This document shows, one piece after another, positions 8,113-22,899 of a stretch of DNA of 64,000 nt. The number at the start of each line of letters is the position of its first letter. Position 1 is the first letter of the stretch. The notes under the pieces were generated by a model that saw only the letters and a program-made list of their open reading frames with translations, searched no databases and had not been told where the DNA came from. Source of the DNA: an uncultured Pelagibacteraceae bacterium (GTDB taxonomy: Bacteria; Pseudomonadota; Alphaproteobacteria; Pelagibacterales; Pelagibacteraceae); NCBI GenBank assembly GCA_902623735.1, contig CACNUU010000004.1, positions 1-64,000 of the forward strand, written 5' to 3'. Both the position numbers and the translations under genes were made by a program.

Positions 8113-9101
8113 TCCTAAAATTTTATGAAATTAATAAGATTGATATTATTTCTCAAAATTTAATTTTATTTTATGGGAACAACGAGGGTTTAAAAAAAGA
8201 GGAAATCTTTAAGATTTATTCTAAAACAAATAGGAAAATATATAAGTATGATGAAAAACAGATATTAGAAAATTCTCAGAATTTTTTTGACAATTTATAT
8301 TCAGGATCTTTATTTGAAAATAAAAAATTTATAATAATAAATAGAGTAACTGATAAAATATTAAAAATTATTGATGAAATACTTGAAAAAAAAATTGAAG
8401 ATACAACTATTTTATTAAATGCAGATATTCTTGAAAAAAGATCTAAACTTAGATCCAAATTTGAAAGAGATAAAAATTTAGTTTGTGTTGCTTTTTACCC
8501 AGATAATGACGAAACATTAAGTAAGTTGGTAAATAATTTTATTAAAGAAAAAAATATTTCATTATCACAAATAAATGTAAATTTTATTATTAACAAATGT
8601 AATGGTAACCGTGAATTTTTAAATAATGAACTTGAAAAAATATATCATTTTTCAAAAAATAAAAAAAATATAAAACATGAAGATTTAGTAAAATTAATAA
8701 ATTTGAATGAAGACTTTAGTATTGCTGAATTAATTGATAATTGCTTGGCTAAAAATCAGAAAAAAACTTTCAATATAATCAATGAAAATAGCTTTAATAA
8801 TGATGACTGTATTCTTATTACGAGAATATTTATTAACAAATTAAAAAGAAATTTATATTTAGCAAAGCAGTATCAATTAAACAAAAATATAGAAAAAACT
8901 ATAAATGATGCTAAACCTCCCATTTTTTGGAAAGATAAAGAAATAGTCAAAAATCAAATCAAAAACTGGACAGCAAAAGGAGTTGAAGATTTAATCATTC
9001 AGATAAATGACATCGAACTTAAAATTAAGAAAAATTCGAATAATGCTATACAAATGGTTTTAGACTTTATTATACAAAGTTGTACAAAAACTAGTAATTA
9101 G
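8109..9101 (+). CDS. holA: DNA polymerase III subunit delta
   Basis: LILFYGNNEGLKKEEIFKIY, length, gene order leuS-lptE-holA-parB. Confidence 0.88.
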   Translation: MILKFYEINKIDIISQNLILFYGNNEGLKKEEIFKIYSKTNRKIYKYDEKQILENSQNFFDNLYSGSLFENKKFIIINRVTDKILKIIDEILEKKIEDTTILLNADILEKRSKLRSKFERDKNLVCVAFYPDNDETLSKLVNNFIKEKNISLSQINVNFIINKCNGNREFLNNELEKIYHFSKNKKNIKHEDLVKLINLNEDFSIAELIDNCLAKNQKKTFNIINENSFNNDDCILITRIFINKLKRNLYLAKQYQLNKNIEKTINDAKPPIFWKDKEIVKNQIKNWTAKGVEDLIIQINDIELKIKKNSNNAIQMVLDFIIQSCTKTSN

Positions 9102-9933
9102 CCTTAATAATTTCAATGATTTTGTTCAATTGGTTTAAATCATGATAGCTAAAAGTGATAGTGCCTTTATTCTTTTTTGAATTTTTTATCTTAACGTTAA
9201 GACCTACTTTTGTTTCTATTGATTTTTCTAAGTCAGTAATATTAGCATCCTTGCTCGTAGCACGAATTTTTTTATTACTTTTAAATAACTTAACAAAATT
9301 TTCGGTTTGTCTTACTGATAATTTTTTTTCTACGACTTTATTGGCTATAAAGGTTGCATTATCAAGTCCTACTAATATTTTCGCATGGCCGGCCGAAATT
9401 TTTTTCTTTTCAATTAATTCTAAAACTTCCAAAGGTAAATTTAATAATCTAAGAGAGTTAGTTATGTAGCTTCGACTTTTACCAATAAACTTTGAAACTT
9501 TGTCTTGATCGTATGAAAATTCATCAATTAGTCTTTTGTATCCTTGTGCTTCTTCGAGTGGATTTAAATCATTTCTCTGAACGTTTTCTACTATGGCAAA
9601 TTCTAAAGATTTTAAATCGTCAACTTCAGTTAAAACAACAGGTATCTCATGTAAACCAGCTCTACTTGCTGCTAGCCACCTACGTTCACCAGCAATAATT
9701 TCATATTTGGATTTATCATCTGTTGACTTTCTTACAATAATTGGCTGTATTACCCCCCTTTCTCTTATAGAATTTGTTAAATCATTCAAATTATCTTCAT
9801 CAAAATCCTTTCGTGGTTGGTATTTATTTGGAATTATTTCGCTTAATAATAATTTGTTAATATTAATCTCAACTTTTGTTTCTCCTATCAATGATGATAA
9901 TCCTCTACCTAGTCCTTTTTTAATAGTATTCAT
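9091..9933 (-). CDS. parB: chromosome partitioning protein ParB
   Basis: KKGLGRGLSSLIGE, IIPNKYQPRKDF, IIAGERRWLAASRAGL, VENVQRNDLNPLEEA. Confidence 0.97.
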   Translation of the reverse strand: MNTIKKGLGRGLSSLIGETKVEININKLLLSEIIPNKYQPRKDFDEDNLNDLTNSIRERGVIQPIIVRKSTDDKSKYEIIAGERRWLAASRAGLHEIPVVLTEVDDLKSLEFAIVENVQRNDLNPLEEAQGYKRLIDEFSYDQDKVSKFIGKSRSYITNSLRLLNLPLEVLELIEKKKISAGHAKILVGLDNATFIANKVVEKKLSVRQTENFVKLFKSNKKIRATSKDANITDLEKSIETKVGLNVKIKNSKKNKGTITFSYHDLNQLNKIIEIIKANY

Positions 9934-10727
9934 TAAGCTGCACTCCCCAGATTGTTCTCTTGATTAATAAATTCATCGGTAAAGCTGTAATATGATTTAC
10001 TCCCTGGACAATTTTTGTCATAAACTAAAACGGGTACGCCATGTGATGGAGCTTCTGATAATCTTACATTGCGAGGGATAACAGTTTGATAAACCTTTTC
10101 CTTAAAATAATTTCTTGCTTCTTCTTCAACTTGTGAGGAGAGCTTGTTTCTTCTATCATACATCGTTAGCAATATTCCCTGGATATTCAGGTTTGGATTT
10201 AGATTTACTTTTATTCTATCAATTGTCTTCATCAATTGTGTTAATCCCTCTAAAGCAAAAAATTCGGTTTGAAGTGGCACCAACAATGAATTAGAGGACA
10301 CCAATGCCATTACAGTTAGCAAGCTCAATGATGGGGGACAGTCTATAAGAATATAATCATATAATGCTCTAGAATCATTTAAATATGCGGTTAATTTACT
10401 CTTTAAGATGAAAGCTCTATCATTATCGCCAGCAGTTTCAACTTCAAGCCCTGACAAATCTACATTAGATGTTATAACATCTAAATTTTCAAATTTTGTT
10501 TTCTTAATTACCTTTGTAATTGACATTGTTCCATTAAGAATTCCATATATAGTTTGATCTGATTGTTCTGTGTTAGATAACCCTAAACCAGTTGTTGCAT
10601 TTCCTTGTGGGTCTAGATCAATTACTAAAATTTTTTTTCCTTGTTGGGATAATGCAGAAGCCAGGTTTATGACTGTTGTTGTTTTGCCTACCCCACCCTT
10701 TTGATTTATTATCGATATTATTTTCAT
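9933..10727 (-). CDS. parA: chromosome partitioning ATPase ParA
   Basis: IINQKGGVGKTTTVINLA deviant Walker A, DLDPQGNATTGLG. Confidence 0.97.
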   Translation of the reverse strand: MKIISIINQKGGVGKTTTVINLASALSQQGKKILVIDLDPQGNATTGLGLSNTEQSDQTIYGILNGTMSITKVIKKTKFENLDVITSNVDLSGLEVETAGDNDRAFILKSKLTAYLNDSRALYDYILIDCPPSLSLLTVMALVSSNSLLVPLQTEFFALEGLTQLMKTIDRIKVNLNPNLNIQGILLTMYDRRNKLSSQVEEEARNYFKEKVYQTVIPRNVRLSEAPSHGVPVLVYDKNCPGSKSYYSFTDEFINQENNLGSAA

Positions 10728-11371
10728 GAAATTTTTTTTTTAATTTTTTTTATATTTAATATAAATGAGTCATCATTAGTTAAACTTTTTTTTACCTCAT
10801 AATCTAAATCCCATACTTTGAGTGTATCGTTTAAAGTTTTATTTCCTGTCCTACCCATAAACAAAATTATGTTTTTATATTTTCTAAAATTTTGACTCAC
10901 TAAATCGAGAATTATTGGCAATGGTTTAAAGGCTCTTGACATTATTGTTCCTGTTTCAATATTTTTAACAGTAAAAATGTCTTTTTGAATTACATTGGTG
11001 TTCAAATTCATTTTTTTTGAAACTTCCATCAAAAAAACACTCTTATGATGGCTTTTTTCATATAGGTTAATTTTCATATCATTTTTTATTCTTTTCATTA
11101 CAATTGCTACTATGAGCCCTGGCATACCACCTCCTGTACCTAAATCGCAGGTTGTATTATAATTTAAATCAACAAAATCAATAATTTGTGCAGAATCTAT
11201 AATATGTCTCTCTCTTATTTGCTCTTTTTCAAATATTTCTCTGCTTATTATGTTAATTTTCCTGTTTTTTTCCATTATCATAGAAATCAAGCTTTCAAGA
11301 TCATTACAAGTTTCACGTGAAACATTCAAGTTTGGTATCTGAGAGTAAAAATTTAATATTTGATTATCCAT
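10724..11371 (-). CDS. rsmG: 16S rRNA (guanine527-N7)-methyltransferase
   Basis: NVSRETCNDLE, DLGTGGGMPGLIVAI, gene order mnmG-rsmG-parA. Confidence 0.95.
   Translation of the reverse strand: MDNQILNFYSQIPNLNVSRETCNDLESLISMIMEKNRKINIISREIFEKEQIRERHIIDSAQIIDFVDLNYNTTCDLGTGGGMPGLIVAIVMKRIKNDMKINLYEKSHHKSVFLMEVSKKMNLNTNVIQKDIFTVKNIETGTIMSRAFKPLPIILDLVSQNFRKYKNIILFMGRTGNKTLNDTLKVWDLDYEVKKSLTNDDSFILNIKKIKKKIS
11309..11324. promoter_or_regulatory. parS: parS centromere-like site inside rsmG
   Basis: AGTTTCACGTGAAACA; 14-bp perfect palindrome GTTTCACGTGAAAC, 15/16 to consensus TGTTTCACGTGAAACA. Confidence 0.9.
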
Positions 11372-13242
11372 TAAGCTATATGCTTAATAGACTTTCTTTT
11401 GACGTGTGACAACAAAATATATACAGCTGCAGGGGTAATTCCATCGATTCTAAGGGCTTGACCCATAGTTTTAGGCCTGATTTCTTTAAATTTAGCTTTT
11501 ACTTCATTAGATAGACCTGAAAATTGGTCATAATTAATGTTATCTGGTATGGTTAAATTCTCATCTCTTTTAAAAGCAAGAATATCTGCTTTTTGCTTTT
11601 TTAAATATCCTCTGTAATGCGAATTAATTTCTATTTGCTCATCGATATCAGCACCATGATCCAAGATTTCTGGCCATATATCTCTTATTTTACTCATATT
11701 TACGGCTTTTTGCGTTAAAATTTCTTCAGCAGATCGAAATACACCATCTTTAGCTATTTTTATCCCAAATTTTTGAGCCTTGGTGGGCGAAATATTCAAA
11801 TTAGACATCTGTAAAGATATTTTGCTTAATTTTTCGAATTTGTCCTCAAAAATTTCTTTTCTAATATTTGAAATTAATCCGATTTTAATACCTTTATGGG
11901 TAAGTCTTAAGTCTGCATTATCAGATCTAAGACTTAATCTATATTCAGCTCTAGATGTAAACATTCTGTACGGCTCCGCAACACCCTTAGTTACTAAATC
12001 ATCTATCATTACTCCAATATAAGCATCTGATCGATCAAGAATAAAAGGCTCCATTTTTTTAAGAGAAAGGGCAGCATTAATTCCAGCTATTAGTCCTTGG
12101 GCCGCAGCCTCTTCGTATCCTGTAGTTCCATTAATTTGACCGGCAAGATATAGATTCTTTATTTTTTTTGACTCCAATGTTAAAAAGAGCTCTCGAGGAT
12201 CAATATAGTCATATTCTATAGCATATCCAGGTCGTATTACTTTAACATTTTCTAAACCATTGATATTGTTGAGTATTTCATATTGTACAACTTCAGGTAG
12301 AGATGTTGATATACCGTTTGGGTAAATTGTATGATCATTAAGGCCTTCAGGCTCTAAAAATATCTGGTGTCTAGTCTTATCTGCAAACTTTACTACCTTA
12401 TCCTCTATTGAAGGACAATATCTTGGACCTACACCTTGTATGCTACCAGAATACATTGCACTTTTAGATAAATTCTTTTCAATAATCTTATGAACCTTTT
12501 CATTGGTATAAGTCATAGAACACGAGACTTGTTTGTTTAGATTTTTTTTGGTTAAGAAAGAAAAAAAATAAGGATCATCATCTGCAAATTGTTTTTCCAA
12601 TTTTTCAAAATTGATAGTTCTGGAATCTAATCTTGGTGGGGTTCCAGTTTTAAGTCTACCTATTTTAAAATTATATTTCTCTAACTGTTCACTTAAACCA
12701 GTGCTTGGCTTTTCATTAAATCGACCGGCAGGGGTTCTTTCATCACCAATATGTATCAAACCATTCAAAAATGTGCCGGTAGTAAGTATTAACTTATTAC
12801 AACTTACTTTATTACCTTTAAATGTTAAAAACCCCTTTATTTCATTATTATTAAAAATAAACTTAATTACAGGATCTGAAAAAATGCTTAAATTACAATA
12901 GTTTACAAGTTTTTCTTGCATAAATTTTCGATATAGTGATCTATCAGATTGAGTTCTCGGTCCTCTCACTGCTGGTCCTCTACTTCTATTTAACAATCTA
13001 AATTGTATTCCAGATTTATCTGCCACTTCACCCATAACTCCATCTAAAGCATCAATTTCTCTAACAAGATGACCTTTTCCTAGACCACCAATAGCTGGGT
13101 TGCACGACATTTCTCCTATGGTATTTTTATTATGAGTAAAAAGAGCAGTGTTAATTCCAAGTCGCGCAGATGCTGCAGCCGCCTCACATCCTGCATGTCC
13201 TCCGCCAATTACAACTACGTCAAATGATAAATCTTTTCTCAT
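11371..13242 (-). CDS. mnmG: tRNA uridine-5-carboxymethylaminomethyl modification enzyme MnmG (GidA)
   Basis: [46 protein letters not shown]. Confidence 0.98.
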
Positions 13243-13358
13243 GATGTGAATTTATATTCGATTGAAATATTTACAAGATTTGAGTTTTTTTTGGTAAATA
13301 AGCTTTATTTATCAACGAAAATTGCCAAAAATGGTCTAAAAATACAGCAAAATCATCA

Positions 13359-14690
13359 TTATTTTCCGATACAAAAATCGTTGAAAATACTGCCTAATAA
13401 CTCCTCTACATCAACTTTTCCAACAATCATGCCCAAATGCCTAGTGGCTAATCTCAAATCTTCTGCTGCTTTATCAAAATCTTTTTTATCGTTTTTGTCC
13501 AAAAAATTTTTCAAATGATCTGCACACTGTTCTAAATGTTGTCTGTGTCTTTCCCTTGTAATTAAAATATCTTCTTCAGATATTAATTGACTTTTCAAAC
13601 TGTTTTTAATTTTGGAAATAAGCAAATCAATATTAAGATTATCTTTTAATGAAATTAAAACGTGATTAAGTTTAAGTATTTCAGGATCTAATTTTTCTTT
13701 TAAGAGATCTGATTTGTTAATAACTAAAATAGCATCATTTTTAAGTAAATCATTTAAAAACCCGCTTAAATCAATACTTTTAGCATCAACAACTACTAAT
13801 TTTAAATCAGCATTTTCAGCTTTTTTAAGTGATAATTTTATCCCTTTCTTTTCAATTTCATCTTTTGAAACTCGAATTCCTGCCGTATCTGAAATAATAA
13901 CTGGATAACCATCTATATTCAAATGTGTTTCGATAACATCTCGGGTAGTGCCAGCGATTTCTGAAACTATAGCAACTTCTCTATTTGATAAATTATTTAG
14001 TAAACTAGATTTACCTGCATTGGTTGGTCCTACGATCGCAATTTTAAAGCCTTCACGAATTATCTCTCCAATTTTTTGATCATTTAAAATTTTGTTGATT
14101 TCTTTTAATGCATCTGAAGAATCTTGTTTAATTTTTTTTAAATTTTCTTCCGGGATATCTTCCTCAGGAAAATCTATTTTTGCTTCAACAAATGATAAAA
14201 TTTTCAATAATTTCTCTCTCAATTCATTAAATTTCTCTGAAGATTTGCCTTTCATTATTTTAACAGCTTGTAATCTTTGAATTTCGGTTTCAGCCGAGAT
14301 TAAATCAGCTATACTTTCAGCTTTTAACAAGTTTATTTTTCCATTTTGGAAAGCAAGCTTTGTAAACTCACCAGGCTCAGCTAATCTGCAATTTTTAATT
14401 TTTGAAATTTCTTTTTGGACAGTTAAAATTACAGCTTTCCCTCCATGTACATGGATTTCTGCCATATCCTCTCCTGTGTAGCTCTCAGGAGCTGGAAACC
14501 ATATAATTATACCTTCATCTATTAGCTCAGAAGTGTTGATATTGTTTATTTTCCGAAGGGTAGCCAATCTTGGCTTTGGAATTTCTTTTCCTGTAAGGGA
14601 TTTAATCACATTAGCTGCTTCAGGACCTGAAACTCTAATTATTGCAACCCCAGAAACGCCTGGGCCTGATGATAGAGCGTAAATAGTCAT
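13359..14690 (-). CDS. mnmE: tRNA modification GTPase MnmE
   Basis: MTIYALSSGPG, GPTNAGKSSLLN, C-terminal FCIGK. Confidence 0.98.
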   Translation of the reverse strand: MTIYALSSGPGVSGVAIIRVSGPEAANVIKSLTGKEIPKPRLATLRKINNINTSELIDEGIIIWFPAPESYTGEDMAEIHVHGGKAVILTVQKEISKIKNCRLAEPGEFTKLAFQNGKINLLKAESIADLISAETEIQRLQAVKIMKGKSSEKFNELREKLLKILSFVEAKIDFPEEDIPEENLKKIKQDSSDALKEINKILNDQKIGEIIREGFKIAIVGPTNAGKSSLLNNLSNREVAIVSEIAGTTRDVIETHLNIDGYPVIISDTAGIRVSKDEIEKKGIKLSLKKAENADLKLVVVDAKSIDLSGFLNDLLKNDAILVINKSDLLKEKLDPEILKLNHVLISLKDNLNIDLLISKIKNSLKSQLISEEDILITRERHRQHLEQCADHLKNFLDKNDKKDFDKAAEDLRLATRHLGMIVGKVDVEELLGSIFNDFCIGK

Positions 14691-14731
14691 AAAATATTAT
14701 AACTTTTATTCTGTAATATTGGAAAACTTAA

Positions 14732-16000
14732 TTAAGCTGGTTTGTTCATTGAATTAAAGAACTCAGCATTGTTCTTTGTATCTTTTAACTTAGAGCTAAT
14801 AAATTCTATTGCATCCATTGTGCCCATTGGAGCTATAATTCTTCTTAAAACATTCATTTTTTGTAAATCATTTTTATCAAACAGTAACTCTTCTCTTCTA
14901 GTTCCTGATTTTGTAATATCGATCGCTGGATAAATTCTTTTATCAGCAATTTTTCTATCTAAAACAGTTTCGCTATTTCCTGTTCCTTTAAACTCTTCAA
15001 AAATTACCTCATCCATTCTGCTTCCAGTATCAATTAATGCCGTAGATATAATTGTTAATGATCCACCTTCTTCAATATTTCTTGCAGCACCAAAAAATCT
15101 CTTTGGTCTTTGAAGTGCATTAGCATCCACACCCCCTGTTAAAACTTTTCCAGAACTAGGTATAACTGCGTTATAAGCTCGGCCTAATCTTGTTATAGAG
15201 TCTAAAAGTATAACTACATCTTTTTTATGTTCGGTTAATCTCTTTGCTTTTTCTATTACCATTTCAGCAACTGCTACGTGGCGCTGAGCCGGTTCATCAA
15301 AAGTTGAGCTTATAACCTCACCTTTAACGGTTCGCTGCATGTCAGTTACTTCTTCAGGTCTTTCATCTATCAGTAATACAATCAAGTAACACTCAGGATA
15401 ATTTTTTGCTATTGAATTTGCTATGCTTTGCAGGATCATAGTTTTTCCTGCCTTTGGTGGTGAAATAATTATTGATCTTTGTCCTTTTCCAATCGGGCTC
15501 ACCAAATCTATTAATCTTGGTGTCAAATCTTGTTTCTTGTCAGGTTTTAACGCTTCAACTTCCATCACCAATTGCTTATCTGGATATAATGGAGTTAGGT
15601 TATCAAAAGCTATTTTGTGTCTTGATTTTTCTGGTTCTTCAAAATTAATCTTGCTAACTTGTAACAAAGCAAAATATCTTTCACCCTCTTTGGGTGCTCT
15701 TACAGGTCCTTCAACCGTATCTCCAGTCCTTAGACCGAATTTTCTTATTTGACTTGGGCTAACATAAATGTCATCTGGCCCAGGAAGATAGTTTGATTCC
15801 ATTGCTCTTAAAAACCCGAAACCATCTTGTAAAAGTTGCAAGACCCCAGCTCCTGTAATCTCCTCTTTTTCAGCAACTTTTTTTAAAATAGCAAAAAGTA
15901 TTTCTTGCTTTCTTAGGGTGCTTGCATTTTCAATGCCTAACTCTTCAGCTTGTGTAATAAGCTGTTCTGAAGATTTTAATTTTAATTCTTGAATATTCAT
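14732..16000 (-). CDS. rho: transcription termination factor Rho
   Basis: [53 protein letters not shown]. Confidence 0.98.
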
Positions 16001-16114
16001 GATTTGTATTGAGGACTTAATAGATGGGTATAATATATATACTCTTACAACTATTACAAGAGTGTTAGTTAAAAATTTAGAAAGAACAAAAAAAGACCGA
16101 TTTTACAGACTTTT

Positions 16115-16642
16115 TTAAGTATTTTCCCTTATTTCTTTAGCAAAATTATCTACTTTTGACCAATCGGTAAATTCGTAAGACTGAGAAGTGTCTGTAGGGC
16201 CCTTTGTTATAAACATAATGAATTTAATTATATACTTATCAAAAAAATTATAATTTGGATAATCTACTCTCCCCGCAAAAACTGCTAATTTTTTTGGTCT
16301 CCAGCTAGATATTTTCAAAAATTTTTTAATGTAAGGATTTGTATTAGGAGTATTTTTTTCTAGTTTTCTTGCAACTACATTAACAGAGAAAAAAATTCCT
16401 TGTTTTTTATCTAAAACTTCTTTGTTTATTTTAATAAATCTATAAAGTTTATCTGAATGTTTGCCATATCTTATACTTGCACCAATTATAATTTTTGCAA
16501 AATCAGACAAATTAAATTTTTCGACTTCATCCAAAGATATTAATTTAATTTCGTCTTTATTATCCAGAAAATTTGCTATCCTTTCACAGATAGTCTTAGT
16601 GTGACCGTCAGTGCTAGAGTAAATTATCAATGAACCTGACAT
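16115..16642 (-). CDS. hemG: menaquinone-dependent (flavodoxin-type) protoporphyrinogen oxidase
   Basis: IYSSTDGHTKTICERIA, IIGASIRYGKHS, FFSVNVVARKLEKNTPNTNPYIKKFL, SWRPKKLAVFAGRVDYPNYN; next to hemH/hemE. Confidence 0.88.
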   Translation of the reverse strand: MSGSLIIYSSTDGHTKTICERIANFLDNKDEIKLISLDEVEKFNLSDFAKIIIGASIRYGKHSDKLYRFIKINKEVLDKKQGIFFSVNVVARKLEKNTPNTNPYIKKFLKISSWRPKKLAVFAGRVDYPNYNFFDKYIIKFIMFITKGPTDTSQSYEFTDWSKVDNFAKEIRENT

Positions 16643-16654
16643 TATAATATAATA

Positions 16655-17770
16655 TTATTTACTCATTATTTGTGGGGGCATTTTTTGATAATATTTTGAG
16701 TCAAGTTTATATTCAATGTCCTCTTTATCTTGCGCAGACCCCTCTGCTTGTACAAAAGTATATTTTGCAAAGTCCTTACACCAATTTTTATTAGTATTGA
16801 GACACTCAACAGGATAAATATTGCCACCTAATTCTTTTGCTTCATTGACAAGCTCATGACCAAGTTCGTCAGTAGTTTCAAGACAATCGGCTACAAAACT
16901 AGGTGAATATATCACAATCTCTTTTTTTCCCTCTGATATTAGTTTTTTTACAACATCATCTGTGTAAGGCGTTATCCATTCCTCGGAACCGAAACGACTT
17001 TGAAAACTCATCGTACACTGATCTGATCTAATATTTTTTAATTTATTTGTAATAAGACAAAAAGTTTCATAGCAATGTCTATAATAATCATCACCTTTGC
17101 TCACAACCCTCCTTTTTTGCATGCCGTGAAAAGTTATCACCAAACTATCAATTTTTTTTCCTTGTTTAATTAATTCATCTAATTTTAGATCAACTTGTTT
17201 AACAGAATTGTCGATGAACGCATGGGTTCTATGGAAGTTAGTAATCACCTCAAAAGTTGGGATCTTTACTCTTTTTGATAACTCTTTTGCAAGGGCATCT
17301 ATTCCAGAAGCAATGGTGCTTTCAGAATATTGGGGAAACATTGGTATAACAAGTAACTTTGTTGCGCCCACTCCATTTTTTAAATCTTCCTCCCAGCTGT
17401 CATAAACTTCATTAACATACGGAGGTGATAAAAGAAAAGCATGATTAACTTCTACATAACCTTGTGGGTCAATCTTTTTTAATTCCTCGCTTACATTTTT
17501 AGTAAAATCTCTAGTGTTTGTTATTAACGGAAAACTTTCTCCATCCCAAATTCTAGCATAAAGTTTTGCAGACTTTTTGGGTCTAAATGGTAACACAAAA
17601 AAATTTAAAATTATTTTCCAAAGCCAGGGGTTAATATCAACAACCCTTGGATCTCCCAAAAAGGCTCTGAGATATTTTCTTAACGCTTTTGGTGTTGGCT
17701 CAGAAGGTGATCCAAGTTGAACAAATACAACTTTTGTTTTTCTTTTTGGGTGGGTATAATTTTTTATCAT
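16655..17770 (-). CDS. hemH: ferrochelatase
   Basis: VVFVQLGSPSEPTPKALRKYLRAFLGDPRVVD, VITFHGMQKRR, SFQSRFG. Confidence 0.96.
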   Translation of the reverse strand: MIKNYTHPKRKTKVVFVQLGSPSEPTPKALRKYLRAFLGDPRVVDINPWLWKIILNFFVLPFRPKKSAKLYARIWDGESFPLITNTRDFTKNVSEELKKIDPQGYVEVNHAFLLSPPYVNEVYDSWEEDLKNGVGATKLLVIPMFPQYSESTIASGIDALAKELSKRVKIPTFEVITNFHRTHAFIDNSVKQVDLKLDELIKQGKKIDSLVITFHGMQKRRVVSKGDDYYRHCYETFCLITNKLKNIRSDQCTMSFQSRFGSEEWITPYTDDVVKKLISEGKKEIVIYSPSFVADCLETTDELGHELVNEAKELGGNIYPVECLNTNKNWCKDFAKYTFVQAEGSAQDKEDIEYKLDSKYYQKMPPQIMSK

Positions 17771-17772
17771 AT

Positions 17773-18774
17773 CTAATAATCTTTTACCATTTTAACCAAA
17801 TAATCCATCATGTTTGGGTCTGTTTCCGGCAAGACACCATGGCCTAAATTAAAAATATATGGGTGATCTTTAAATATATCTAGGTATCTTTTTGCCTCTT
17901 TTTTAACGGTCGCTCTATCAGTTAAAAGAATTTTAGGATCCAGGCCTCCCTGAACTGGTATTCTTATTTCATCACTAATTTTTAGTGGATCAGTATCGTA
18001 ATCTATACAAATAACATCTGGTTGAACAATATTACAATATTTTTTGTAATCTTTTATTCCTCTAGGAAAACATATAACTGGAACATTTAAAGATTTAACA
18101 TAATTTACTAATTCGTGGGTTGGATTAAAAACATATTTATTTAGATCATCTTCTTTTAATAATCCTGCCCAGCTGTCAAAGATTTGGATGATTTCAGCAC
18201 CGCTTTCAATTTGATTCTTAATATGAATTTTTAAAAATTTATTTAAAATAACTAAAATTTTTTCTATCAAAATTTTATCACTAAAAAAATTTTCTTTTAA
18301 ATTTAGTTTTGGAGATTGTTTATTAAGCATATATACTAGTAATGTCCAGGGTGCACCGACAAAACCGATTGTGCTCTTCTTTTTTACCAGTTCGTGGTTA
18401 CTAACTATTTTTATCGCGTTATAAATTGGATATATTTTTTCTACAAAATCATTTTCGTTAACGCTAGAAATTAACTCTAAATTTAAATCACTTAAGATTG
18501 GGCCAAAATTTTTTTTAAATTCTACACCTTGATTAAGACCATAAGGCACCATTAAAATATCTGAAAATATTATAGCTGCATCTAATTCAAATCTTTTTAG
18601 AGGCTGTAAAGTTATTTCTGAAGACAAATTTGGATTTAGACATAATTTAATAAAATCAGTATTTTTTTTTCGAATTTCCCTAAATTCAGGTAAATATCTT
18701 CCAGCTTGTCTCATTATCCAAATTGGATGAATGTTTGTTTTTTTATTTAAAATAACTTCATTGATAGGTGTCAT
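17773..18774 (-). CDS. hemE: uroporphyrinogen decarboxylase
   Basis: PIWIMRQAGRYLPEFR, IFSDILMVPYGLNQGVEF, FNLGHGVLPETDP. Confidence 0.97.
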   Translation of the reverse strand: MTPINEVILNKKTNIHPIWIMRQAGRYLPEFREIRKKNTDFIKLCLNPNLSSEITLQPLKRFELDAAIIFSDILMVPYGLNQGVEFKKNFGPILSDLNLELISSVNENDFVEKIYPIYNAIKIVSNHELVKKKSTIGFVGAPWTLLVYMLNKQSPKLNLKENFFSDKILIEKILVILNKFLKIHIKNQIESGAEIIQIFDSWAGLLKEDDLNKYVFNPTHELVNYVKSLNVPVICFPRGIKDYKKYCNIVQPDVICIDYDTDPLKISDEIRIPVQGGLDPKILLTDRATVKKEAKRYLDIFKDHPYIFNLGHGVLPETDPNMMDYLVKMVKDY

Positions 18775-19057
18775 ATAAATAATTAAATATAAAAAGGTTG
18801 TAATATTAGTATAGCTTGTGAATATTGATAATTAAATTTTCTGCACATTTTATTAACTTTTTATAAACATTTAAGATTTTAAATCTCTTAAATATATATG
18901 AAAAATTGAAGCCGATTGATAATTTATTCAAATATGTGATTAAAATTATACAAATGTTTATTTTTGTGAAGAAAAGCCTTGTTTTACAGTGTTAATTTTA
19001 AAATATTAAATTTATTCAATATGATTTAAATAATACAAAGTTATTAACATTTAATAC
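18775..19057. other. oriC: candidate chromosomal replication origin (oriC) between divergent hemE and ppsR
   Basis: Very AT-rich 283-bp gap in the hemE/RP001-homolog position used as origin in other alphaproteobacteria; several 8/9 DnaA-box-like 9-mers, direct and inverted repeats; transcription diverges from it; parS sites on both sides. Confidence 0.7.
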
Positions 19058-19882
19058 ATGACTAATACTTATCAAATATACCTTATTTCTGACTCTACCG
19101 GAGAAACCTTAGATAGAATTTTTATAGCCATTAAAGCTCAATTTAAAAATATAGATTATAAAGTTCATACCTGTTCTTTTACTAGAACAGAAAATCAAAT
19201 TCTAACCATTCTTTCAGAAGCAGAAAAAAATTCCAACGCAATAATTTTGTATTCTATAGTTGATAGTAATTTGGCAAAATACCTTGCACATATCAGTAAC
19301 GAAAAAAAGATACCGTGTTTTGGAGTTTTAGGAGATTTAATCTTGAGTTTTTCAAAGCTACTTAATCAAAAGGCTTCACATGAACCAAGTGGCCAATATA
19401 AATTAAATGATGATTATTATAAAAGAATTGAAGCAATTCAATTTACAATGAATCATGATGATGGAAATTTAATTAAAGAAATTAAAAAATCTGACATAGT
19501 TTTGTTGGGTGTAAGCAGAACGAGCAAAACACCAACCTCAATTTATTTAGCAAACAAAGGTTTTAAAACATCAAATATTCCATTAATTAACAAAAATTCA
19601 ATTCCAAAAATTTTAAAGGAGGATCCTAAAATTACATGCGTAGTTGGTTTAAACACTGAACCAGAAAGACTTGTGGATATAAGAAAAAATAGAATGAATT
19701 CACTAAAAGAGACTGAAAATAAGACTTATGTTGATCTAGAAAGAATTAAAAAAGAAGTAAATGAAGCTAAAAATACTTTCAAAAAATATGGATGGCCAAT
19801 AATCGATGTGACCAGGAAGTCAGTAGAGGAAACTGCCGCCTCAGTAATCAAAATATACGAAATTTATAGACAGAATGGTTAA
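19058..19882 (+). CDS. pyruvate, phosphate dikinase/PEP synthase regulatory protein (DUF299 family)
   Basis: YLISDSTGETLDRI, VLLGVSRTSKTPTSIYLANKGFKTSNIPL. Confidence 0.95.
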   Translation: MTNTYQIYLISDSTGETLDRIFIAIKAQFKNIDYKVHTCSFTRTENQILTILSEAEKNSNAIILYSIVDSNLAKYLAHISNEKKIPCFGVLGDLILSFSKLLNQKASHEPSGQYKLNDDYYKRIEAIQFTMNHDDGNLIKEIKKSDIVLLGVSRTSKTPTSIYLANKGFKTSNIPLINKNSIPKILKEDPKITCVVGLNTEPERLVDIRKNRMNSLKETENKTYVDLERIKKEVNEAKNTFKKYGWPIIDVTRKSVEETAASVIKIYEIYRQNG

Positions 19883-20459
19883 TTTAATTCTTGCATCAAA
19901 AAGTAAGGTTAGAAAAGAAATACTTCAAAAAAATAATATATCGGTGAGTGTTGAACCTTCTAATGTTGATGAAGATATCGTAAAAAAATCTTTATTAAAA
20001 GAAAATGCAACTCCAGAAATTATTTCAAAAAATTTGGCTGAACTTAAAGCTAATAAAATTAGTTCTAAAAACTTGAATTCGTTAGTATTAGGAGCTGATA
20101 GTGTTATAGATCTTAATGGTGAATTAATATCAAAACCAATAAATAGGGATAATGCTTTTGATATTTTAAAAAAGCTTAATAATAAAAAACATTATTTGAT
20201 CAGTTCAGTTTGTATATCAAAAGATGGATCTATGATATGGAATTATACAGATAAAGCAATTTTAACAATGAAAAATATGACTGATCAAGAACTTAAAAGA
20301 TATTTGTCTAAAATTACAGATGACGCTCTTTATGCGTATAATGTTTATCAAATTGAAGGAGAGGGAAGAAATTTATTTTCCAAAATAGAGGGTGATGAGG
20401 ATACAATTATGGGATTACCAATAAAAAAAATAAAAGAATATCTCAAAAATTATCAATGA
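19875..20459 (+). CDS. maf: Maf family nucleotide pyrophosphatase
   Basis: LILASKSKVRKEIL, VLGADSVIDLNGELISKP. Confidence 0.93.
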   Translation: MVNLILASKSKVRKEILQKNNISVSVEPSNVDEDIVKKSLLKENATPEIISKNLAELKANKISSKNLNSLVLGADSVIDLNGELISKPINRDNAFDILKKLNNKKHYLISSVCISKDGSMIWNYTDKAILTMKNMTDQELKRYLSKITDDALYAYNVYQIEGEGRNLFSKIEGDEDTIMGLPIKKIKEYLKNYQ

Positions 20460-21250
20460 AAAAATATTTAGTAATTGGCAACCCCATTAAACATTCATTG
20501 TCACCTAAGCTACATAATTTTTGGATGAAGGAAAATAATATTAATGCAAATTATGAAAAAAAAATAATGAATAATGATGAATTAAAAAATTTAATTTTAA
20601 AAGTAAAAAATGAAGAAATTAATGGAATAAATGTTACTGTGCCATTTAAAAAAACTATAATACCATTTATTGATATCTTAAGTGATGAAGCACAGAAAAC
20701 CCAATCTGTTAATACAGTCTATTTACATAACGGTAAAACAGTAGGCCACAACACTGATATAGATGGATTTATGATGAGCGTTAAAAATTCAAAATTCAAT
20801 ATTGATGGTAAAAAAATTTTCATACTTGGAGCGGGCGGGGTAGTATCATCACTGGTATATGCTCTAAAAAAAATGAAAGCATCTAATGTTATTATTAGCA
20901 ATAGAACACAAACAAAAGCCGAAGATTTAAAAAATTTATTTAATGATATTGAGGTTTTAAAATGGGGAAATATTCCTAACTTTGATATGATAATAAATGC
21001 GACGAGTTTAGGTTTAGATCCAAAAGATAGGATAGATTTAGATTTTTCTATGGTTGGAAAAGACAAATTTTTTTATGATGTAATTTATAATCCTATACAA
21101 ACCAATTTTCTTAAAGAAGGTGAAAAATTAGGACATAAAACAGAGAATGGTAAAATGATGTTTATTTATCAAGCGTCCCTATCTTTTAAGGTTTGGCACG
21201 GAATTCAGCCTCAAATAAACAAGGAGACAATTAATCTTTTAGATCAATGA
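20456..21250 (+). CDS. aroE: shikimate dehydrogenase
   Basis: VIGNPIKHSLSPKLHNFW, GINVTVPFK, GHNTDIDGF, ILGAGGVVSSLV. Confidence 0.96.
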   Translation: MKKYLVIGNPIKHSLSPKLHNFWMKENNINANYEKKIMNNDELKNLILKVKNEEINGINVTVPFKKTIIPFIDILSDEAQKTQSVNTVYLHNGKTVGHNTDIDGFMMSVKNSKFNIDGKKIFILGAGGVVSSLVYALKKMKASNVIISNRTQTKAEDLKNLFNDIEVLKWGNIPNFDMIINATSLGLDPKDRIDLDFSMVGKDKFFYDVIYNPIQTNFLKEGEKLGHKTENGKMMFIYQASLSFKVWHGIQPQINKETINLLDQ

Positions 21251-21816
21251 GAAGAATAGGTATCTTGGGAGATATAGGATCTGGAAAAAGCTTTGCAGCT
21301 AAGCAATTCGGTTATCCTATTTTCAACGCTGATCATGAAGTTCATGAACTGTACAAAAAAAACATTAAGGTTTTCAATAAATTAAAAAAAATTTTACCAG
21401 ACTTTATAAACTCTTTTCCTGTAGACAGGATTGAGATCTCAAAGGCTATATTAGCTGACAAAAATAATTTGAAAAAGATCATAAAAATTATTCATTGGGA
21501 AGTTAGAAAAAAAATGAATATTTTTTTAAAAAAGAATAAGAGAAAAAAATTTGTGATTTTAGATATACCTCTTTTATTAGAAAATAAGATTAATAAAAAA
21601 GGCGATATATTAATTTTTATTCAAGCACATAAAAAAGATATTTTAAAAAGATTAAAAAAAAGAAAAAATTTTAACTTAAAATTAACAAAAAAATTTAGAG
21701 ACATTCAACTGCCACTTGTTTATAAAAAAAAAAAATCAAATTTTATTATTAAAAATGATTTTACTGCTAGAAAATTGAAAAAATATGCTAAAAGTATATT
21801 AAATAAAATTCAATGA
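21247..21816 (+). CDS. coaE: dephospho-CoA kinase
   Basis: RIGILGDIGSGKSFAAKQFG, FNADHEVHELY, LDIPLLLEN. Confidence 0.93.
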   Translation: MRRIGILGDIGSGKSFAAKQFGYPIFNADHEVHELYKKNIKVFNKLKKILPDFINSFPVDRIEISKAILADKNNLKKIIKIIHWEVRKKMNIFLKKNKRKKFVILDIPLLLENKINKKGDILIFIQAHKKDILKRLKKRKNFNLKLTKKFRDIQLPLVYKKKKSNFIIKNDFTARKLKKYAKSILNKIQ

Positions 21817-22478
21817 AAGAAGTGGTATTAGATACTGAAACAACAGGACTTTCAACGAAGGAAGGTCATCGTCTTGTTGAAATTGGTTGCTTAGAATTAG
21901 AAAATTTAATTCCAACAGGTGAAAAATTTCATTGTTATCTTAACCCTGAAAGAAAAGTTTCTGAAAGCGCATTTAAAGTCCATGGATACACAGACCAATT
22001 TTTATCTAATCAGAAAAAATTTACAGACATTGTTGAAGAATTTATAAAATTTATTGAGAATAAAAGACTCATAATTCATAATGCAGAATTTGATCTTTCA
22101 CATATAAATAATGAGCTCAAAATTTTAGGAAAAAAAAATATAACTAACGATGTAGTTGATACGTTGGCTTTAGCAAGAGATAAATTTCCTGGCTCATCAA
22201 TAAGCCTTGATGCTCTGTGTAAACGATACAGAATTGATAATTCAAAAAGAACTAAACATACAGCTCTTATCGATTGTGATTTACTAACAAAAGTTTACAT
22301 AAATTTGATTGACCAAAAAGAACCTAAATTAAACTTTCAAAATTTTGATATTGAAGAAATTAGTAAAGACATTGGAAAAAGCGCATATTATAAAAAAATT
22401 GTTGATATCTCAGAAACTGAGCTAAAGGCTCATAAGAATTATTTAAAATCAGATCTCAAAAAAAATTTTTTTAATTAA
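21813..22478 (+). CDS. dnaQ: DNA polymerase III subunit epsilon
   Basis: VLDTETTGLSTKEGHRLVEIGCLEL, IHNAEFDLSHIN, LDALCKRYRIDNSKRTKHTALIDCDLL. Confidence 0.96.
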   Translation: MKEVVLDTETTGLSTKEGHRLVEIGCLELENLIPTGEKFHCYLNPERKVSESAFKVHGYTDQFLSNQKKFTDIVEEFIKFIENKRLIIHNAEFDLSHINNELKILGKKNITNDVVDTLALARDKFPGSSISLDALCKRYRIDNSKRTKHTALIDCDLLTKVYINLIDQKEPKLNFQNFDIEEISKDIGKSAYYKKIVDISETELKAHKNYLKSDLKKNFFN

Positions 22479-22899
22479 ATCTCTCATTATATAATTTGTT
22501 AAAATCAACTTTTTTTTCAAGCTTTATATTCGGATGTCCAGAGTTGTGTACTAAGCTTAAAAAAGTTTTTTCAAGATCAGGGTAAATTGCAGTTGGTACA
22601 TCACACAGAATAATCCTCTCCAAGTCTTTCTTTTCTTTAATATCTTCATTTACTCTAATTATTGTCGAATAAACAATTTCGTAGTAAGATTTTTTTTCAT
22701 TTGGCTCTTTATCCTCAAATTTTAAGGTTGTGTTTACTTCTATTAATTTATTCTTAAGAGCTTTTGATGTAATATCAATATTAAGTTGATATTTTGAAAT
22801 ATTATCTTTTACGAATAAGAATGTTTCAATATCTGGTGTTTCACTTGAAACATCTTTTATATATTTTGCTAAAATCTTAAATTTTTCTGTCATGATCAT
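22471..22899 (-). CDS. secB: protein-export chaperone SecB
   Basis: KYIKDVSSETPD, CDVPTAIYPDLE, gene order dnaQ-secB. Confidence 0.9.
   Translation of the reverse strand: MIMTEKFKILAKYIKDVSSETPDIETFLFVKDNISKYQLNIDITSKALKNKLIEVNTTLKFEDKEPNEKKSYYEIVYSTIIRVNEDIKEKKDLERIILCDVPTAIYPDLEKTFLSLVHNSGHPNIKLEKKVDFNKLYNERFN
22837..22852. promoter_or_regulatory. parS: second parS-like site inside secB
   Basis: TGTTTCACTTGAAACA, 15/16 to TGTTTCACGTGAAACA. Confidence 0.75.

Follow-up and report, generated by a model that had tools for sequence, protein, structure and literature searches.

A probable chromosomal replication origin between hemE and a COG1806 gene in SAR11 bacteria

The window analysed here, a stretch of 64,000 nucleotides, comes from an uncultured member of the Pelagibacteraceae (SAR11, one of the most abundant bacterial groups in the ocean) whose genome assembly is composed of 23 contigs and is 73% complete. 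At positions 18775-19057 it holds an intergenic gap of 283 bp with a GC content of 16.3%, flanked by divergent genes: the main open reading frames are all on the minus strand from 9091 to 18774 and all on the plus strand from 19058 to 22478. The AT content of the gap is 83.7%, as against about 63-76% across 4-kb segments of the window, and its stability ranks 46 of 63717 among all 283-bp stretches of the window. The neighbours on the hemE side are hemH, a hemG-type gene, rho, mnmE, mnmG, rsmG, parA and parB, with holA in the opposite orientation, and those on the COG1806 side are maf, aroE, coaE, dnaQ and secB. This hemE/COG1806 neighbourhood has been retained across 110 compared gaps, the exception being genus g9, where rho replaces hemE (genome G009). 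The first-pass annotation of this DNA had proposed the gap as a candidate oriC between hemE and the gene of a PPDK regulator; the gap, its AT-richness, its divergent neighbours and all of the strings quoted could be located in the sequence, and the synteny was borne out by the matches of both boundary genes to their protein families.

9091 to 9933, minus strand: parB (TIGR00180)
9933 to 10727, minus strand: gene of a ParA-family partition ATPase
11309 to 11324: parS-like site AGTTTCACGTGAAACA, one mismatch, 7.5 kb left of the gap
17773 to 18774, minus strand: hemE, left boundary gene (TIGR01464, 315 bits)
18775 to 19057: putative oriC, the complete hemE-COG1806 intergenic region (110 orthologous gaps, top DnaA-box cluster, skew switch in relatives)
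19058 to 19882, plus strand: COG1806/DUF299 PpsR-type regulator gene (PPDK/PEPS regulator), right boundary gene (PF03618/NF003742)
22837 to 22852: parS-like site TGTTTCACTTGAAACA, one mismatch, 3.8 kb right of the gap

The gap has eight sites that differ from TTATNCACA by at most one letter, where 0.80 would be expected, and none of 2000 dinucleotide shuffles reached eight. The set of such 9-mers is well above chance, and the earlier caution that near-matches arise by chance does not hold for the set as a whole. When an exact TTATNMACA was scored as 3 and a one-mismatch site as 1, the gap was the top DnaA-box cluster of the window (score 15, the next being 8) and also of the complete 1.2-Mb genome of the congener G003 (16, next 12). 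Sequence conservation was analysed in 110 orthologous gaps of 266-291 bp, the named relatives being Pelagibacteraceae whose COG1806 protein is 78-88% identical. Here TTATNCACA was found 84 times against 3.8 expected and TTATNAACA 273 times against 18, counts which are inflated by kinship among the gaps and weigh less than the positions of the boxes; TTATNTACA (17 against 18), TTATNGACA (2 against 1.7) and TTATNCAAA (13 against 14.3) were at chance in the same gaps. Exact boxes cluster at -241 (minus strand), -208 (plus), -197 (plus), -93 (minus) and -17 (plus) from the COG1806 start codon. Altogether seven DnaA sites, S1 to S7, occupy conserved positions, three of them (S2-S3-S4) spaced 11 bp start to start, which leaves 2 bp between the 9-mers. 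Even in G005, which belongs to a different genus and has a COG1806 protein 54% identical, sites fall exactly at -219, at -208 and, with a single mismatch, at -17. No match to the COG1806 protein was obtained from those members of the sister family, in the same order, that were sampled. Conservation of spacer length was rejected as proof of an origin since other spacers also keep their length.

18817 to 18825, minus strand: DnaA box S1, here ATATTCACA; TTATTCACA in 55/86 genus members
18839 to 18847, plus strand: DnaA site S2, here TTCTGCACA; genus consensus TTATAAACA; opens a trio of sites on one strand at 11-bp spacing
18850 to 18858, plus strand: DnaA site S3, here TTATTAACT; genus consensus TTATAAACA
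18861 to 18869, plus strand: DnaA box S4, here TTATAAACA; genus consensus TTATTAACA; at most one mismatch from TTATNMACA in 92% of the genus
18904 to 18912: genus-conserved block AATTGAAGC, candidate element; TGAAGCTT in 66/110 gaps against 0.3 expected, the window keeping TTGAAGC
18946 to 18954, plus strand: DnaA site S5, here TTATACAAA; genus consensus TTATACACA, weakly conserved
18965 to 18973, minus strand: DnaA box S6, here TTCTTCACA; TTATTAACA in 69/86 genus members and exact TTATNMACA in 93%; best conserved of all positions
18981 to 18988: conserved block GTTTTACA, candidate element; in 60/110 gaps against 5 expected
18993 to 19052: candidate unwinding element (low confidence), the least stable 60-bp stretch of the gap (-0.959 kcal/mol per step, nearest-neighbour)
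19041 to 19049, plus strand: DnaA box S7, TTATTAACA, 17 bp before the COG1806 start codon

Alignment of the gap across SAR11 relatives, one of the checks proposed at the outset, returned conserved positions and sorted the 9-mers that had been quoted. Those at 18817 (TGTGAATAT), 18861 (TTATAAACA) and 19041 (TTATTAACA) are at conserved positions, as is TTATACAAA at 18946, more weakly than these three; TTATTCAAA at 18924 is not. The 18924 box was rejected and is incidental, its position not being conserved in relatives and its class, TTATNCAAA, not being enriched. The quoted list was also incomplete, given that 18839, 18850 and 18965 belong to the conserved set, and the box type has to be corrected: the dominant conserved box is TTATTAACA, with A at position 6 (A6), alongside TTATTCACA. 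Exact TTATNCACA is indeed absent from the gap, and of the seven sites only S4 and S7 are exact TTATNMACA in the window; no perfect box had been found because S1 and S6 have here moved away from the consensus of the genus. S7 has at most one mismatch in 94% of genus members and in 79% of other genera. The DnaA of the window genome retains the RPRQ and RDHTT segments of domain IV, so that ordinary box recognition would be expected, with A6 boxes presumably binding DnaA more weakly.

Neither of the two conserved blocks outside the DnaA boxes (18904-18912 and 18981-18988) could be matched to a known site. Among the repeats noted previously, the palindrome at 18870-18892 is present in a poorly conserved stretch and was set aside as incidental rather than an origin element; the block TTTATTCAA belongs to a longer repeat of 11 nt, AATTTATTCAA, whose copies at 18921 and 19009 fall in variable columns; and the direct repeat ATTGATAAT does occur in the window at both 18824 and 18915. 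Nearest-neighbour stability showed that the unwinding propensity of the gap is not unique, other stretches of the window being equally weak, and it was therefore rejected as proof of an origin.

The strand bias of relatives was addressed with a logistic model of third-position G versus C that accounts for both gene strand and replication arm, applied to the whole of G003 and to sampled stretches of G009, G005, G026 and G040, all closed genomes. This strand-corrected model was used because gene strand dominates the raw cumulative skew of G003 (lowest at 98 kb and highest at 675 kb, with the gap at 67 kb), which was discarded as a locator. With the terminus at the antipode, the peak was 0 kb from the gap in G009 and at +5 kb in G005, with dnaA, at +72 and +70 kb respectively, 11.2 and 12.7 units below the optimum; peaks at -20 kb in G003 and +10 kb in G026 were both shallow, and G040 gave no skew signal. 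With a free terminus the peaks were at +10 kb (G003), 0 kb (G009), 0 kb (G005), +60 kb (G026) and -100 kb (G040), the last two flat or broad. The joint fit of the five relatives had its optimum at +5 kb, offsets between 0 and +10 kb costing no more than 2 log-likelihood units, and preferred an origin at the gap over one at dnaA (63-72 kb away) by 27.1 log-likelihood units, most of which are carried by two genomes; the localisation rests mostly on these two, which are of other genera, with G003 weak and G026 broad. The GC-skew location proposed as a check was thus obtained on relatives, with a switch within about 10 kb of the gap (0-10 kb) and not at dnaA. As a terminus marker, dif had no convincing match in G003, and no dif has been reported in Pelagibacter (PMC2731167).

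Comparison of gene order between genera revealed inversions around the gap. Between G003 and G009, 126 reciprocal-best orthologues no more than 150 kb from the gap lay on opposite sides of it, 125 of them strand-inverted, and between G003 and G005 all 124 such orthologues were strand-inverted. The gap is contained in an unmoved core of 18 kb, from about -3 to +15 kb, while the position of dnaA relative to the gap shifts from -63 kb to about +70 kb between genera. Inversions symmetric about the origin are a usual form of bacterial rearrangement, and for this reason the pattern is independent support for an origin here; the core is too wide for symmetry alone to single out the gap. The partition system points to the same region. 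By themselves the two one-mismatch parS sites of the window are only suggestive, as 11 of 100 shuffles gave as many parS matches with up to three mismatches allowed. The whole of G003 yielded a single parS match with at most two mismatches, at a distance of 8.3 kb from the gap. One perfect parS was present in each of the sampled portions of G009, G005 and G040, 16.7-19.5 kb from the gap, and G026 has one at 9.5 kb in addition to a weaker match at 128 kb. A parS less than 20 kb from the gap was present in all five genomes examined. Cori, the origin of Caulobacter, likewise has a parS nearby.

Genus g9 offers a case in which the gap and hemE are separated. The gap of G009 is bordered by rho, and hemE is represented there by a single divergent match at C1:718091-719053 (718 kb), 577 kb from the gap and near its antipode. 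The hemE matches of the genus score no more than 184 bits, short of the family cut-off, which suggests that hemE may have been replaced in this genus. The spacer nonetheless has exact boxes at -226 (minus strand), -183 (plus) and -14 (plus), with the skew switch at 0. Boxes and skew switch stay without an adjacent hemE, and therefore the origin follows the element and not hemE.

On the strength of box conservation and skew in relatives, symmetric inversions, parS proximity and the g9 case, the gap at 18775-19057 is very probably the single chromosomal replication origin (oriC) of this SAR11 bacterium, as had been proposed when synteny carried most of the weight; box conservation, strand bias and genome rearrangements now stand beside it. 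If the gap served instead solely as a promoter region for the divergent hemE and COG1806 genes, with the conserved blocks as promoter or operator elements, the divergence of its neighbours would be explained, TAGTATA near hemE and TATGAT near the COG1806 gene could be -10 elements, and the conserved length would be of the kind common to other spacers. Promoter-like matches are, however, no commoner than in shuffles; DnaA-box enrichment and the top cluster genome-wide would be unexpected of a promoter; skew and inversion symmetry centre on the gap; and G009 keeps the boxes though hemE is not its neighbour. We thus consider a promoter-only function unlikely, and promoters probably coexist with the origin in the gap.

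The width of the joint skew interval, which extends to +10 kb, and of the inversion core (-3 to +15 kb) would also accommodate an origin in another intergenic region of the same 18-kb core, an option we regard as very unlikely given that no equal DnaA-box cluster occurs elsewhere in the window or in G003, where the nearest strong clusters are about 15 and 17 kb off. Least probable of all is an origin beside dnaA, as in many other bacteria: dnaA is the default origin marker and G003 on its own rejects it weakly, but the joint likelihood is 27 units worse, dnaA switches side of the skew switch between genera, and in G009 and G005 the switch is 70 kb from dnaA.

The origins of Caulobacter and Rickettsia lie at the hemE/COG1806 boundary (PMC1914354), and the gap appears to be a compact origin of this type in which most boxes are A6 and CtrA sites are not enriched. 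It resembles Cori of Caulobacter crescentus (hemE/CC0001) in boundary genes, DnaA boxes and AT-richness, and the origin of Rickettsia prowazekii in the same boundary genes and an AT-rich genome. It differs in length, 283 bp against more than 400 bp in Caulobacter and R. prowazekii (PMC1914354), and in its boxes, which in SAR11 are mostly TTATNAACA, unlike those of Cori. Five CtrA sites are present in Cori, whereas TTAA-N7-TTAA is at chance level in the 110 SAR11 gaps (33 against 31 expected) and absent from the gap of the window; Rickettsia origins also have predicted CtrA sites (PMC1914354). Such sites are common to the hemE/COG1806 type and not defining, because origins which lack them, e.g., that of E. 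ruminantium, are still classed in it (PMC1914354) and no ctrA orthologue was found in Pelagibacter (PMC2877005); direct CtrA control would be absent here. The IHF site (WATCAANNNNTTR) occurs 25 times against 8.4 expected in the 110 gaps, scattered over many positions, with none in the window; there are three HU/IHF-family genes. GANTC is rarer than expected both in the 110 gaps (2 against 11) and across G003 (1771 against 3206). Each of the nine genomes tested carries a gene of the GcrA family and a single strong N6/N4-methylase match, presumably CcrM, and GANTC methylation has been reported in Pelagibacter, lower near the origin placed by GC skew (PMC9516812).

These features would be consistent with a mechanism in which DnaA first binds the canonical-type box S1 and the well conserved S6 and S7 and then spreads along the head-to-tail array S2-S3-S4, whereupon AT-rich DNA of the gap would melt, DnaB would be loaded and replication would proceed bidirectionally; ParB on parS, 4-20 kb away, would segregate the new origins. 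The array is reminiscent of the low-affinity arrays of E. coli oriC, with their 2-bp site separation and few consensus boxes among many weaker ones (PMC6070618), and differs from them in having three sites of the A6 class. We tentatively suggest, with somewhat more doubt than confidence, that SAR11 origins in general could be driven by DnaA through mainly A6 boxes (TTATTAACA) arranged in a fixed geometry, with CtrA sites lacking and CcrM (GANTC) sites nearly so though GcrA and a CcrM-like methylase are kept, i.e., a stripped-down alphaproteobacterial origin timed by weak DnaA sites alone.

One paper located the SAR11 origin by GC skew only (PMC9516812), and our full-text searches of a library of papers returned none tying it to a sequence. 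The GRiD rule places the origin at the dnaA contig (PMC7852909), and tools using it would misplace the SAR11 origin by 63-72 kb. A defined origin would be the correct anchor for peak-to-trough growth estimates, and the mapped box positions are a target for DnaA binding tests and origin plasmids. Two further observations concern the boxes themselves. G003 carries secondary TTATNAACA clusters at C1:81940-82215 and C1:49703-49977, some 15 kb and 17 kb from the gap, one on each side, which are possibly DnaA-titration or reactivation sites, or due to chance. In the window, S4 and S7 together with their 3' flanks make up a 14-nt direct repeat, TTATWAACATTTAA (93%), at 18861-18874 and 19041-19054, hinting that the DnaA site may be longer than 9 bp.
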